From Candidatus Amesbacteria bacterium (GTDB lineage Bacteria; Patescibacteriota; Microgenomatia; CAZETR01; Amesbacteraceae): DNA of 38,278 bases. The stretch is from the NCBI GenBank assembly GCA_027331445.1, contig DAHWUD010000009.1:1-38278 (forward strand), given 5' to 3'. The position numbers were made by a program, and so were the translations under genes. A model generated the notes under the pieces. That model searched no databases and was not told the origin of the DNA. It saw only the letters and a program-made list of their open reading frames with translations. Positions 25,535 through 29,749 of the stretch are shown piece by piece; the first letter of the stretch is position 1, and every line of letters begins with the position of its first letter.

Positions 25535-25544
25535 TACGCAACTA

Positions 25545-25621
25545 GGCCCCGTCGTCTAGTGGTCCAGGACGCCTGGCTTTCATCCAGGAAATCGAGGGTC
25601 CGATTCCCTCCGGGGTCACCA
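25545..25621 (+). tRNA. tRNA-Glu (UUC), integration target
   Basis: Full cloverleaf: acceptor GGCCCCG/CGGGGTC (one G-U), anticodon stem CCTGG/CCAGG with loop CTTTCAT giving UUC, and T-arm GAGGG/CCCTC. CCA is encoded. The last 20 bases lie within the 33-bp repeat that bounds the downstream element, so the gene stays intact in the integrated state. Confidence 0.95.
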
Positions 25622-25634
25622 AAGGTGAATTTTC
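25602..25634 (+). repeat. attL copy of 33-bp att core
   Basis: Begins GATTCCCTCCGGGGTCACCA and ends 13 bases later with GAATTTTC. Identical over 33 bases to 29717-29749; the flanking bases differ on both sides. It covers the 3' strand of the T-stem, acceptor stem and CCA of tRNA-Glu plus trailer. Confidence 0.92.
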
Positions 25635-26786
25635 TTCAGCAAAACTCTTAATCAGCTGGAAAGAGCTTGATATTTCGTCGGTTCGAAAGGTTCCATTTTC
25701 ATAAACGACCCCCTTAGGAAAAATTGCCTTCTGCAAAACTGTTTTTTCGTTCGGTTTCATATGCTCCCAATAATTTCCGACGTGAGCTACAAAGTGGATG
25801 GTGAAGTCAATTACTGCTTCAGCTTCACTTCTGTCAATCTTATTTTCTGACAGTTCAACCTTTAATACCGACTCCTCTGCCCTTAATTGGTCTAACATGG
25901 TCAATTCCTCCCCTTCCGTAATTTTTCCTACTCGTCTTGATCTCATTACGTCAAGTTTTTCGTTGCCGATATCGTTTATTTTCCCTAAGATCTTAGTCTC
26001 TTCCGTCTCATGTAAGCTTGCACTCCTTTCGACATCCTCAAGGAGCGTCGCCTTAAGCAATGCAAGCTGAACCGGGCTCAAGGTAAATTGATTAAGGTAC
26101 TCCGAGAAACTGCTTTCTAGGTCACTTCTACGCCAGCTGTGAGGAGCTGGGCAGCCTTTTGTGGTGCAGTGATAATAAGGATAGCTTCCGCCACTCCGGC
26201 CCTTGCTGTAGCTTCCACGTAAAGGAGATAGGCATGTTCCACAAAGGGTGAAGTGTCTGAGAGGAAAATCGATTGATTTCCCCGTGATTTTTACTCGTTT
26301 TGGTTCTCCATAAATGGCCTTATTTGATCTACTCCATAAATCTTCGGTTATTATGGCTTCATGGACCCCGGGTGCTTCCATTTTCCAGTCAGCTGCCTCC
26401 ATAACACCGTAGTAAAACTTCTTTTTGAGGATTTTGTCTATCGTCTTGACCGTAGCTTTTTGTTTCCATAGTCTTCCAAATCCCCTATCATTCATCTTTT
26501 GGGTTAGCTGTTCTTTTGAATATAATTTTGTAGCTGCTTCTTCGAAAAGAGAAGTAATTATCGGCCGTAACTCTTCTACTACCTCAACAGTTTTCTTTCC
26601 GTTCTTGATACCATGCCTATAGCCAATAGGTGCCCCCCACGGCCACCGGCCGGCGTTAAAAGCCGCTTTCATACCACTGGCTGTCCTTTCTGACCTCACA
26701 TCATTATCTAACTGTGCCCAAACAAGCATCATGCCTCTCATCGCCTTACCCATGGCGTTATTTTCAGATGGCTCTGTGGCCGACAT

Positions 26787-27168
26787 GTATAGACGATGTA
26801 CAGCATCGCACAGTAAACCACTCTCAATTTAATCGTAATTGACAGAAAATACAGAAGAAAAGGTGGAGGTAAGATATAGACCCCGTACTGAACGGACTAT
26901 CGGGTGCCGAGTAGTCATCTATTCTCAAATCTCACACATTCAATCGTAAATAACAGATACTACAGAAAAGTTACTAAGCACATGTATAAACGGTAACCTG
27001 AATACAGATAAAACAGCTTTTACCGAATTTCACTTTATTCAAAACTTCTCTGGAAGCTAGTATCGAGGCTAATCGGCAACTCCTTCCCCCGATTATATTA
27101 GGAAAAGTTAGCTTAACTTCGGAAAACTTGTGCTTGACAACTAGTTGTATTGGTTGTACTATATCAAC
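26787..27168. other. Non-coding control region with ACAG repeats
   Basis: No gene is seen in these 382 bp. Three copies of ACAG-N5-ACAG lie at 26842-26854, 26953-26965 and 27004-27016. The first two sit in a longer imperfect repeat starting AATCGTAA (26831-26856 and 26942-26967, 22 of 26 identical). A small inverted repeat GATG-N5-CATC lies at 26794-26806. It may be a recombination-accessory, replication or regulator-binding site. Confidence 0.5.
27134..27162 (+). promoter_or_regulatory. RHH gene promoter with palindromic operator
   Basis: TTGACA (27134-27139), 17-bp spacer, TACTAT (27157-27162), 6 nt before ATG. A perfect 12-bp palindrome ACAACTAGTTGT (27137-27148) overlaps the -35 and spacer, a typical place for autorepression by the RHH product. 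Confidence 0.65.
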
Positions 27169-27429
27169 ATGACCGACTACAAAAGACTAACCATATTTCT
27201 GCCAGAAGAGGTTATTAAAACCCTAAAGAAAATTGCTATCGACACGGGCGTGCCCGTTTCAAGATATATAGAGGAGCTAGTTGAAGAGCATACTAAAAAG
27301 AGAGAGAAAGATGCATCGAACCAACTTGCTCAAGTAGTCAGTACTCCCTCAATCCAGCCTTCTACAACAACCCCAACTAGCACCCAGCCTAATGTAACCG
27401 TAGCTGAACCAGTGATGTACAAGGATTAG
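27169..27429 (+). CDS. Ribbon-helix-helix (CopG/Arc-type) regulator
   Basis: 86 aa from ATG at 27169. Residues about 5-45 fit an RHH fold: a beta strand KRLTIFLP, helix EEVIKTLKKIAIDTG and helix PVSRYIEELVEEHTKK. A long Ser/Thr/Pro-rich tail (about 55-86) follows. A longer frame from TTG at 27145 would start inside the promoter, so the ATG, 6 nt from the -10, is chosen. It probably represses its own promoter through the overlapping palindrome, and perhaps the cargo genes downstream on the same strand. Confidence 0.8.
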   Translation: MTDYKRLTIFLPEEVIKTLKKIAIDTGVPVSRYIEELVEEHTKKREKDASNQLAQVVSTPSIQPSTTTPTSTQPNVTVAEPVMYKD

Positions 27430-27437
27430 TAATACCT

Positions 27438-27647
27438 ATGAAAATTGATATTAAATTAAAATCCCAAAAAGATAATTTGTCCAAATGGATGCCAGTTACC
27501 ATCCTAAATATACACGAGGGGGATAAAGTTCATGTTATTAGATGGGAGTGGCAAAATCAACGATTTGAAAGCCAGGAAAAAGCAGATTTCTATGCTAATT
27601 TCAATTCAATTAGAAAGCTTAAAAGGGAATGTTTTATCCTCTCTTAA
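27438..27647 (+). CDS. Small hypothetical protein of the element
   Basis: 69 aa, no family recognised. Charged, with two Trp-containing segments (LSKWMPVTI and VIRWEWQNQRFES); no membrane segment. It starts 8 bp after the RHH stop, so it is probably co-transcribed. The composition and spacing support a real gene. Confidence 0.55.
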   Translation: MKIDIKLKSQKDNLSKWMPVTILNIHEGDKVHVIRWEWQNQRFESQEKADFYANFNSIRKLKRECFILS

Positions 27648-27674: not shown

Positions 27675-28436
27675 ATGGACATCAATGACAAATCTGAATT
27701 AAACAGAAAATACTTTTTGGATGGAGACACATATAATTGTCCCTTTTGTAACCGCCATTCAATAGTCTACTCAATACGTGATTCCTTTAGTTTTGACTGG
27801 TCTAAGAATAAGGCAGTCTACGGCTATATAGTCATGTGTCATGGGTGCAATGGAATATCCTTACATTTGTCCTACCACCCTTTAAACTCTGATAAGTTTA
27901 CCCTGTCTTTCGAGTTCAGGGATAAGGACGGCAAATTAGCCCACCATAAGCCAGAGGCTGATAACCTAGATAAGTACTTTTTTTACCATCAACCCGATAG
28001 TTTTTTCACTCTGGACGAACGGATACCAAAAATCATAAGAGAACTAGTATCGGAAGCGGATGGTTGTCGAAGGATGAACTGGCTAGTCGGGGCGTCGGGA
28101 GCTTTAAGAAAGGCTACTTACAAATTTCTTCAAGAACAAGGGTCTACGGGTAATAGTTACGAAGAGCAGATTAAATGGTTAAAAACAAAACATTCCCTCG
28201 TAGCCTCGGAATACTTTGACGCACTGTCAAACATTCAAGGGATGACGAGTGAGGAACTGCATGAAGACAAAGATTGGGAACCATGGACAAGAGAGGAATT
28301 TGACTTTCTGGTAGCCACCGTCAAAGCTGTCCTACATGAAGTGTATGTTGTTCCTGATGAAAGGAAATCCATGCTAGCTAAAGTTTTATACTTAGGGCCG
28401 GAAAAGAAAAATAGTCAGACTTCACAGAAGGCATAA
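27675..28436 (+). CDS. Zinc-finger protein with DUF4145-like C-terminal domain
   Basis: 253 aa. The N-terminal half holds a four-Cys zinc module: CPFC (C22, C25) and CHGC (C55, C58). The C-terminal half (about 115-240) reads like DUF4145, a HEPN-like helical bundle: IPKIIRELVSEADGC, GASGALRKATYKFLQEQG, a mid-domain helix, and EEFDFLVATVKAVLHEVYVVP. DUF4145 occurs alone and attached to restriction enzymes, so a role in defence or nucleic-acid surveillance is possible, but this is inference. I see no clear RxxxxH catalytic HEPN motif. Start ATG at 27675, 27 bp after the 69-aa gene. Confidence 0.6.
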   Translation: MDINDKSELNRKYFLDGDTYNCPFCNRHSIVYSIRDSFSFDWSKNKAVYGYIVMCHGCNGISLHLSYHPLNSDKFTLSFEFRDKDGKLAHHKPEADNLDKYFFYHQPDSFFTLDERIPKIIRELVSEADGCRRMNWLVGASGALRKATYKFLQEQGSTGNSYEEQIKWLKTKHSLVASEYFDALSNIQGMTSEELHEDKDWEPWTREEFDFLVATVKAVLHEVYVVPDERKSMLAKVLYLGPEKKNSQTSQKA

Positions 28437-28576: not shown

Positions 28577-29626
28577 ATGTTGGAAAACTGGAGGTATAAC
28601 AGAGCGTTGGGGGCAAATGCCAAACAAACGGAGTTTGACGCAAGATGCGTTTTTTTAGAGCAGGAATACTTAACTCAGTTAGCATTGGGACATTTAGGTA
28701 TAGGCGAGACAATCACCCCCTCAGAGGTATCTAAAGTTGGCAGTTTATTGATGCGTCCAGAACTGATACCTAACTTGAGAGTGCCCTATGCAGTTGAAGT
28801 ACTAGGAATGCCAGGTGCAGGCAAATCGACTGTTATAGAGCGTTACTTGAAAGAGTTATGGTCAAGAAACGAGAGAAATAAAGTTTCGCTTATAGATGAG
28901 GGGGCCAGAACGATAAAACAGGAATTTGGTGGTTTGAGATATACAGACCCATTTCAATATTCATTACTGGGAGGGACAGCTACATTTTTAGGTTACATAG
29001 AAGCTTTGAAGAATGTTAACTCGGGATTGAGAATGATGGTTTCAGACAGGGGACAAATCGACAGACGAGTATTTAGGAGGACACTGTTTAGCCAAGGAGA
29101 TGTTAACCCGGGAATAATGACCGACGAGAGTCTATTTATGTATGGGCTGGAAAATACTCCGGTACAGATAGGGGGAGTTATTATGTTGATGGCTCGTCCA
29201 GAGGTGGCGATGGAAAGAAAAAAGAATCTAGGCCCAGTAACAAATATGAACTTTTTGCCAAGACTATACGAGCAATATTGGAGATTGCATGAGGAAATCT
29301 TGCGTGGGGAAGTTCCTTACAGGATTTATGCTTGCATTGATGCAGAAAAGGATAGCGAAGAAGTTTACGAGAGATTCAAATACGCCATGGACACGGCATT
29401 AAATGTTCATAGCATCTACATGGCAGCATTGGCCAAAGCTTTTCCCGAAGAGTTCGATAGAGCCAGGGCTATGCATGACAAAATACCTCGACGAAGAAGC
29501 CATGCTCAAGAAGTATTGGGTAAGAAGCTTGGAGGGAAAAAGGTGCTCATTGTGGGTGGTGACGAGATGGAGTCCGAGGAAGAGATATTAAATAAATCTA
29601 TCCTTGAGGGCTATCGCTTAAAATAA
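28577..29626 (+). CDS. P-loop nucleoside-kinase-like NTPase
   Basis: 349 aa. A roughly 65-residue N-terminal helical extension is followed by a P-loop domain: strand YAVEVLG, Walker A GMPGAGKS (77-84, K83), a DEGAR segment (about 107-111), and SDRGQIDRRVFRR (about 156-168), like the DR[SY] region of deoxynucleoside/thymidylate kinases. A predicted lid/helix pair (ARPEVAMERKK) is typical of that fold. The C-terminal about 90 residues are charged and helical and are not recognised. It may phosphorylate a nucleoside, nucleotide or other small target; it could also be a toxin-like kinase. Last cargo gene before attR. Confidence 0.65.
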   Translation: MLENWRYNRALGANAKQTEFDARCVFLEQEYLTQLALGHLGIGETITPSEVSKVGSLLMRPELIPNLRVPYAVEVLGMPGAGKSTVIERYLKELWSRNERNKVSLIDEGARTIKQEFGGLRYTDPFQYSLLGGTATFLGYIEALKNVNSGLRMMVSDRGQIDRRVFRRTLFSQGDVNPGIMTDESLFMYGLENTPVQIGGVIMLMARPEVAMERKKNLGPVTNMNFLPRLYEQYWRLHEEILRGEVPYRIYACIDAEKDSEEVYERFKYAMDTALNVHSIYMAALAKAFPEEFDRARAMHDKIPRRRSHAQEVLGKKLGGKKVLIVGGDEMESEEEILNKSILEGYRLK

Positions 29627-29716
29627 CTTAGCTATACCGAAGGTTTCCAACTTGACCCATAGCTTTAACCCACGACTTTATCTCCTCAATAATAAGTGAT
29701 AGATTGAGTTCGATAA

Positions 29717-29749
29717 GATTCCCTCCGGGGTCACCAAAGGTGAATTTTC
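29717..29749 (+). repeat. attR copy of 33-bp att core
   Basis: Identical over 33 bases to 25602-25634. It is followed by AGGTGAAC and the ABC transporter promoter region, so host sequence resumes here. The 90 bp before it, after the P-loop gene, hold no feature except the stop codon (29678-29680, minus) that the recombinase frame would reach in the excised circle. Confidence 0.92.

Follow-up and report, generated by a model that had tools for sequence, protein, structure and literature searches.

A type of large serine recombinase whose attachment site overlaps its own gene end and whose C-terminal tail is probably exchanged on integration

A recombinase remnant at a tRNA-Glu gene

The window analysed here, a stretch of 38,278 nucleotides from Candidatus Amesbacteria bacterium (contig DAHWUD010000009.1), contains a 4.1-kb integrated element that adjoins a tRNA-Glu gene and has a GC content below that of its surroundings. 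Its large serine recombinase (LSR) gene runs out of the element and into the tRNA on the opposite strand. The tRNA-Glu (anticodon ttc; 25545..25621, plus strand; called with ARAGORN) is the attB gene, and its 3' end is restored by the element's own copy. The two ends of the element are a 33-bp exact direct repeat, with the attL core at 25602..25634 (20 bp from the 3' end of the tRNA and a further 13 bp) and the attR core at 29717..29749. Identity over the full 33 bp has a chance expectation of about 3e-13 in a 5 x 5 kb comparison, and both the rebuilt tRNA and the repeat of its 3' end at the far end are characteristic of tRNA-targeting integrative elements.

Measured from the tRNA 3' end, a T-loop-like motif starts at 17 nt in attB (ATCGGAC) and at 22 nt in attP (ATCGAAC). 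As a rule, the zinc-ribbon motif of a serine integrase site is separated from the crossover by about 5 bp more in attP than in attB (PMC3783163), and the window shows exactly this offset of 5 bp. Because the spacing matches that of known serine integrase sites, the att assignment in the window is sound, and the same shift places the real crossover probably at about tRNA position +5/6, not at the edge of the 33-bp identity. An empty attB site was also sought in relatives of the window, where the neighbouring ABC transporter had no close orthologue among the relatives searched.

The recombinase is a remnant of 414 residues on the minus strand (25542..26786; Pfam and tblastn), whose 3' end passes through attL into antisense tRNA-Glu. 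Both the Recombinase domain (PF07508, E 8e-10) and the zinc ribbon (PF13408, E 6e-8) are recognised by Pfam. The Resolvase match covers profile positions 101-145 only, the last third, and homology to intact relatives, as seen by tblastn with intact N-termini, starts at their residue 119-123. About 120 N-terminal residues are absent, including the catalytic serine of the resolvase domain that the intact relatives possess, and the same tblastn queries found no N-terminal part elsewhere in the window element. The window recombinase is thus a relic, and since it has no catalytic domain there is no live switch at this locus. Two similar plus-strand stretches, TTTAATCGTAATTGACAGAAAATAC and TTCAATCGTAAATAACAGATACTAC, lie upstream of the truncated gene (26825-26960) and are possible regulator sites.

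The preliminary description of this DNA had proposed that integration gives the recombinase a different C-terminus, and both of the ends that it predicted were reproduced. In the integrated state the open reading frame reads EENSPLVTPEGI up to the junction and then GPSISWMKARRPGPLDDGA and a stop (25542..25601, minus strand), the 19 tail residues being antisense to tRNA-Glu. When the gene is instead continued in silico across the core into the DNA left of attR, it enters the P' arm of the reconstructed attP, which carries the motif ATCGAAC, and reads EGI followed by LSNSIYHLLLRR and TAA (29678..29716, minus strand; stop at 29680-29678).

Read-through among intact relatives

The comparison covered LSRs from 95 genomes of the same class together with 70 loci from a genome-collection scan. 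Once known duplicates had been removed, 89 of these LSRs had a convergent tRNA or transfer-messenger RNA (tmRNA) gene, and in 85 of the 89 the integrase frame runs in frame over the tRNA or tmRNA 3' end. In three exceptions (L033, L054 and L072) the called tRNA is preceded by another tRNA or tRNA-like sequence that the gene crosses first, and these look like tRNA-calling problems; L003, which is the L033 locus, was compared in making this judgement. The fourth, L034, has an internal stop. Intact homologues thus read through att in frame, and the stop before att, which by the preliminary description would have made the window's read-through a by-product of decay, is not their pattern.

Over the last eight codons before the tRNA there are no stops in the integrase frame, as against 21 and 70 in the other two frames, whereas past the tRNA end the length of the integrase frame shows no consistent difference from that of the other two. 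All three codon phases are used at the tRNA end (31, 23 and 35 LSRs). The integrated tails are 0-121 codons long and come from tRNAs Glu, Leu, Gly, His, Phe, Lys, Gln, Asn, Asp, Ser, Arg, Ala, Ile, Pro, Trp, Val and Cys, and from tmRNA. A stop-free approach to the tRNA, the use of every phase and the absence of a length bias beyond it together indicate that the integrase frame is held open as far as the crossover, and that its continuation on the tRNA side is arbitrary. The arrangement also suggests that the C-termini of many integrases in these genomes, REDSNLEP and RGFEPR for example, are antisense tRNA. The window frame does cross attL, as first described, but its doing so exactly in codon phase carries no special weight, because the left part of the gene is common to both states and either continuation is read in the gene's phase.

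LSRs L042, L045, L051 and L066 lie at tmRNA genes, and their frames enter antisense tmRNA. A related group of 445-460 residues (L048, L074 and L075) has no adjoining tRNA and ends at its own stop; it is a possible out-group. Searches for attR by exact repeats in the wider sample mostly recovered no att pair, because serine att cores are short. The pair found in this way for L067 was retained, and those of L051, L058, L062, L063, L088, L093 and L129 were rejected as tRNA consensus matches or as lacking the motif offset.

An element-encoded tail in one clade

The free form could be reconstructed in one well-sampled clade, that of relatives resembling locus L056. At the far end of the element, nine loci with long flanks have a conserved arm in direct orientation, as do ten more for which extra flank was fetched; in L233 no direct-orientation arm was found in the extra flank. 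This direct copy is attR, and excision would therefore join the integrase to the conserved arm. Read in the integrase frame, the attP arm encodes a short tail ending at a stop (for example SVYEKIRTFFKNC, NVFEQIRTHFKESC and TLFEKIRTSFRENR), with a clade consensus of approximately Phi-[YF]-E-K-[IV]-R-T-x-F and a length of 11-17 residues.

Several properties of this arm depend on the reading frame. The motif is found in one codon phase in 72 of the 76 arms in which it is clear, and among these 72 the central R is invariant (72/72), with T found in 64 of them and F in 63. Of the codon differences between arms, a share of 0.275 is synonymous in the integrase frame, compared with 0.098 and 0.058 in the shifted frames. 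Likewise, a tail of 11-17 codons results in 87% of cases in the integrase frame, in 9% and 13% in the shifted frames and in 21% on the tRNA side. The P' arm also contains the zinc-ribbon DNA motif, and the attP motif offset relative to attB is +4 or +5 in 47 of 50 cases. The synonymous excess and the fixed length, both in the integrase frame, point to selection on the tail as protein, in addition to that on the DNA-binding motif.

Both kinds of tail can be found in natural copies. L076 has two integrase 3' ends, which share FSVWR and continue to a stop as ARWDSNPRSSA at tRNA-Asp and as TIWDKIRIDLFVNK at the other; the latter resembles the tail of the L056-like clade. Two viral contigs, in which no tRNA was found beside the integrase, end in LVD followed by LLTPSWNPTLAWLRHLYDTLPRAA and HPTPSWNSVRTWLSSFQAYRAA, and an integrated relative of these integrases ends in LVD followed by LTGIEPVTS. 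Natural pairs of this kind are given by L076, and by L155 and L078 versus L154. The two viral tails end in RAA, a possible degradation tag; the clade tails are mostly not ssrA-like. In L043, as in L076, the two integrase 3' ends are directly repeated, one at a tRNA and the other elsewhere, as if by tandem integration.

A profile made from the clade C-termini plus the tail was then searched against 374 genomes. Among the matches listed, the best-scoring long integrase frames align up to the crossover only, the tail columns being matched in short detached frames, and no long integrase frame keeps the conserved tail. A tail-attached copy should top these matches, because it would score highest on the profile. 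One candidate for such a copy, G176:C41, was rejected as a decayed fragment. The comparison of C-termini therefore bears out the contrast first proposed between the two states, with integrated copies ending in arbitrary antisense-tRNA tails and the free-form tail conserved in the L056-like clade.

Members of this clade also have a second attP. In 87 of its 99 LSRs the integrase 3' end recurs as an inverted copy just upstream of the integrase, in most cases 57-159 bp long; the copy ends at the crossover, which usually lies 4-8 nt within the tRNA, and the conserved arm comes next. This upstream site duplicates attP in full (a P' arm of 83-228 bp plus a P arm, both near-identical in the duplicate) and stays intact after integration, so that an integrase cassette of about 1.6-2.2 kb lies between inverted att sites. 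Such loci include L052, L053, L056, L058, L062, L065, L068, L070, L203, L205 and L207, several of them from the window's own family; repeat comparison found no inverted attP copy in the window element. The inverted site might act as an operator of the integrase gene, serve to invert the cassette or be a reserve site. We speculate that an active integrase beside an intact attP could recombine with other tRNA genes, and that selection may for this reason favour disabling the integrase.

Between attR and the integrase, the elements of L052, L065, L203, L256, L205 and L207 carry cargo that by eye resembles DNA methyltransferases, restriction genes, large surface proteins and AAA ATPases whose N-termini are OLD-like. 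The cargo of the window element, all on the plus strand, comprises a ribbon-helix-helix (CopG-like) protein (27145..27429; Pfam RHH_3, RHH_1 and DUF6364), an open reading frame of 69 residues without a Pfam family (27438..27647), one of 253 residues without a significant Pfam family (27675..28436) and a kinase-like P-loop protein of 349 residues with weak Pfam matches only (28577..29626).

Possible consequences of the tail exchange

We consider it fairly probable that these genes represent a widespread LSR type with attP over the 3' end of the integrase gene, in which integration swaps the tail and, in the clade where the free-form tail is conserved, its loss would lower or redirect activity. 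The swap itself is real and general, and in the L056-like clade it replaces a selected peptide by an unselected one. Recombination with the tRNA attB gives the integrase new final codons and a new stop: as a free circle the gene would read across P and P' and end in the element-encoded tail, and once integrated it reads into the antisense tRNA and ends in an arbitrary one. The conserved tail may be needed for the integration reaction or may direct it, and its loss on insertion would then be a switch built into recombination. In the likeliest version, the element tail would favour or permit integration, and an enzyme that has lost it would be weaker or redirected. A stricter version, which we advance only tentatively, would reserve full integration activity for enzymes with the consensus tail, so that insertion would be one-way and need no separate directionality protein, with the inverted attP allowing the tail to be regained by inversion. 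The state switch put forward in the preliminary description thus stands as an exchange of tails that is general in intact relatives, the conserved clade tail being absent when integrated; as a live switch in the window it does not.

Several points weigh against a functional role for the tail. The effect of either tail on recombination is a prediction from sequence, and the free form is reconstructed from attR and the inverted attP copy, not from direct sighting; free circles of the L056-like clade were sought in phage and viral collections and none was found. The window's own subfamily has one known attP tail, which offers no comparison for conservation. In the AlphaFold model of a viral relative, apparently in the free form, the tail is of low confidence, and the last 21 residues of phiC31 integrase are reported to be non-essential (PMC5737554). 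The crossover in this model falls in a low-confidence C-terminal stretch past the last confident strand, so both forms are predicted to retain all folded domains. The extreme C-terminus of LI integrase is reported to lie close to the coiled coil that takes part in controlling directionality, and a directionality factor fused to the C-terminus of phiC31 or Bxb1 integrase to alter directionality (PMC5737554).

The best-surviving alternative is a neutral overlap, in which attP sits at the gene end for compactness, neither state needs the tail past the crossover, any DNA that comes next supplies the stop and P' is conserved for DNA binding only. The phiC31 result, the position of the tail outside the confidently folded part, the zinc-ribbon motif in P' and the arbitrary integrated tails of 0-121 codons without frame preference would all fit such an overlap. 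We nevertheless think it unlikely, as it is only in the integrase frame that variation in the P' arm is mainly synonymous and that the tail has a fixed length. An invertible cassette, which is compatible with the swap as a switch, would have recombination of attL with the inverted attP flip the integrase in the L056-like clade, restoring the tail and reactivating the enzyme before excision. It is suggested by the intact inverted attP with near-identical arms directly upstream in most of these LSRs; however, attL x attP is not a normal LSR recombination, no tail-on orientation was seen among the matches listed from the 374 genomes, and the window element has no inverted attP, so that we regard it as quite improbable. 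Gene decay as the cause of the read-through, which the truncated window recombinase might suggest, is ruled out by full-length relatives of about 500-580 residues that read through nearly without exception.

The closest known parallel is the integration-dependent immunity of mycobacteriophage BPs and its relatives, where attP likewise lies in a coding frame, integration alters the C-terminus of a regulator and two proteins come from one gene (PMC4557955). There, however, the gene encodes the repressor, and the integrated form is shorter and loses an ssrA-like degradation tag (PMC4557955); in the present case the gene encodes the integrase itself, which is a serine recombinase, attP does not lie in a repressor gene, and the tail is replaced by antisense-tRNA codons. 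The archaeal suicidal integrases of the SSV1, pTN3 and pT26-2 type also have att inside the integrase gene, and that gene is altered by integration (PMC8371274), but they are tyrosine recombinases that are split in two, whereas here serine domains stay in one frame and only tail codons are exchanged. Neither system matches in enzyme class, gene or consequence. With the large serine integrases A118/LI, phiC31 and Bxb1 the intact relatives share their domains, short attB and attP and the 5-bp motif offset (PMC3783163), and in the open-access literature we found no description, for serine integrases, of an attP that spans the end of the integrase frame and makes the tail depend on the state.

For mobile elements at tRNA genes in this small-genome bacterial group, these results mean that the landing site spans the end of the element's own integrase gene. 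Predicted att pairs are supplied for dozens of uncharacterised integrases. How serine integrases insert in one direction only is under active mechanistic study and underlies tools for genome engineering, and a natural family that exchanges a conserved integrase tail on insertion makes the role of the C-terminus directly testable. The tail exchange suggests that these integrases may disable or redirect themselves after one insertion.
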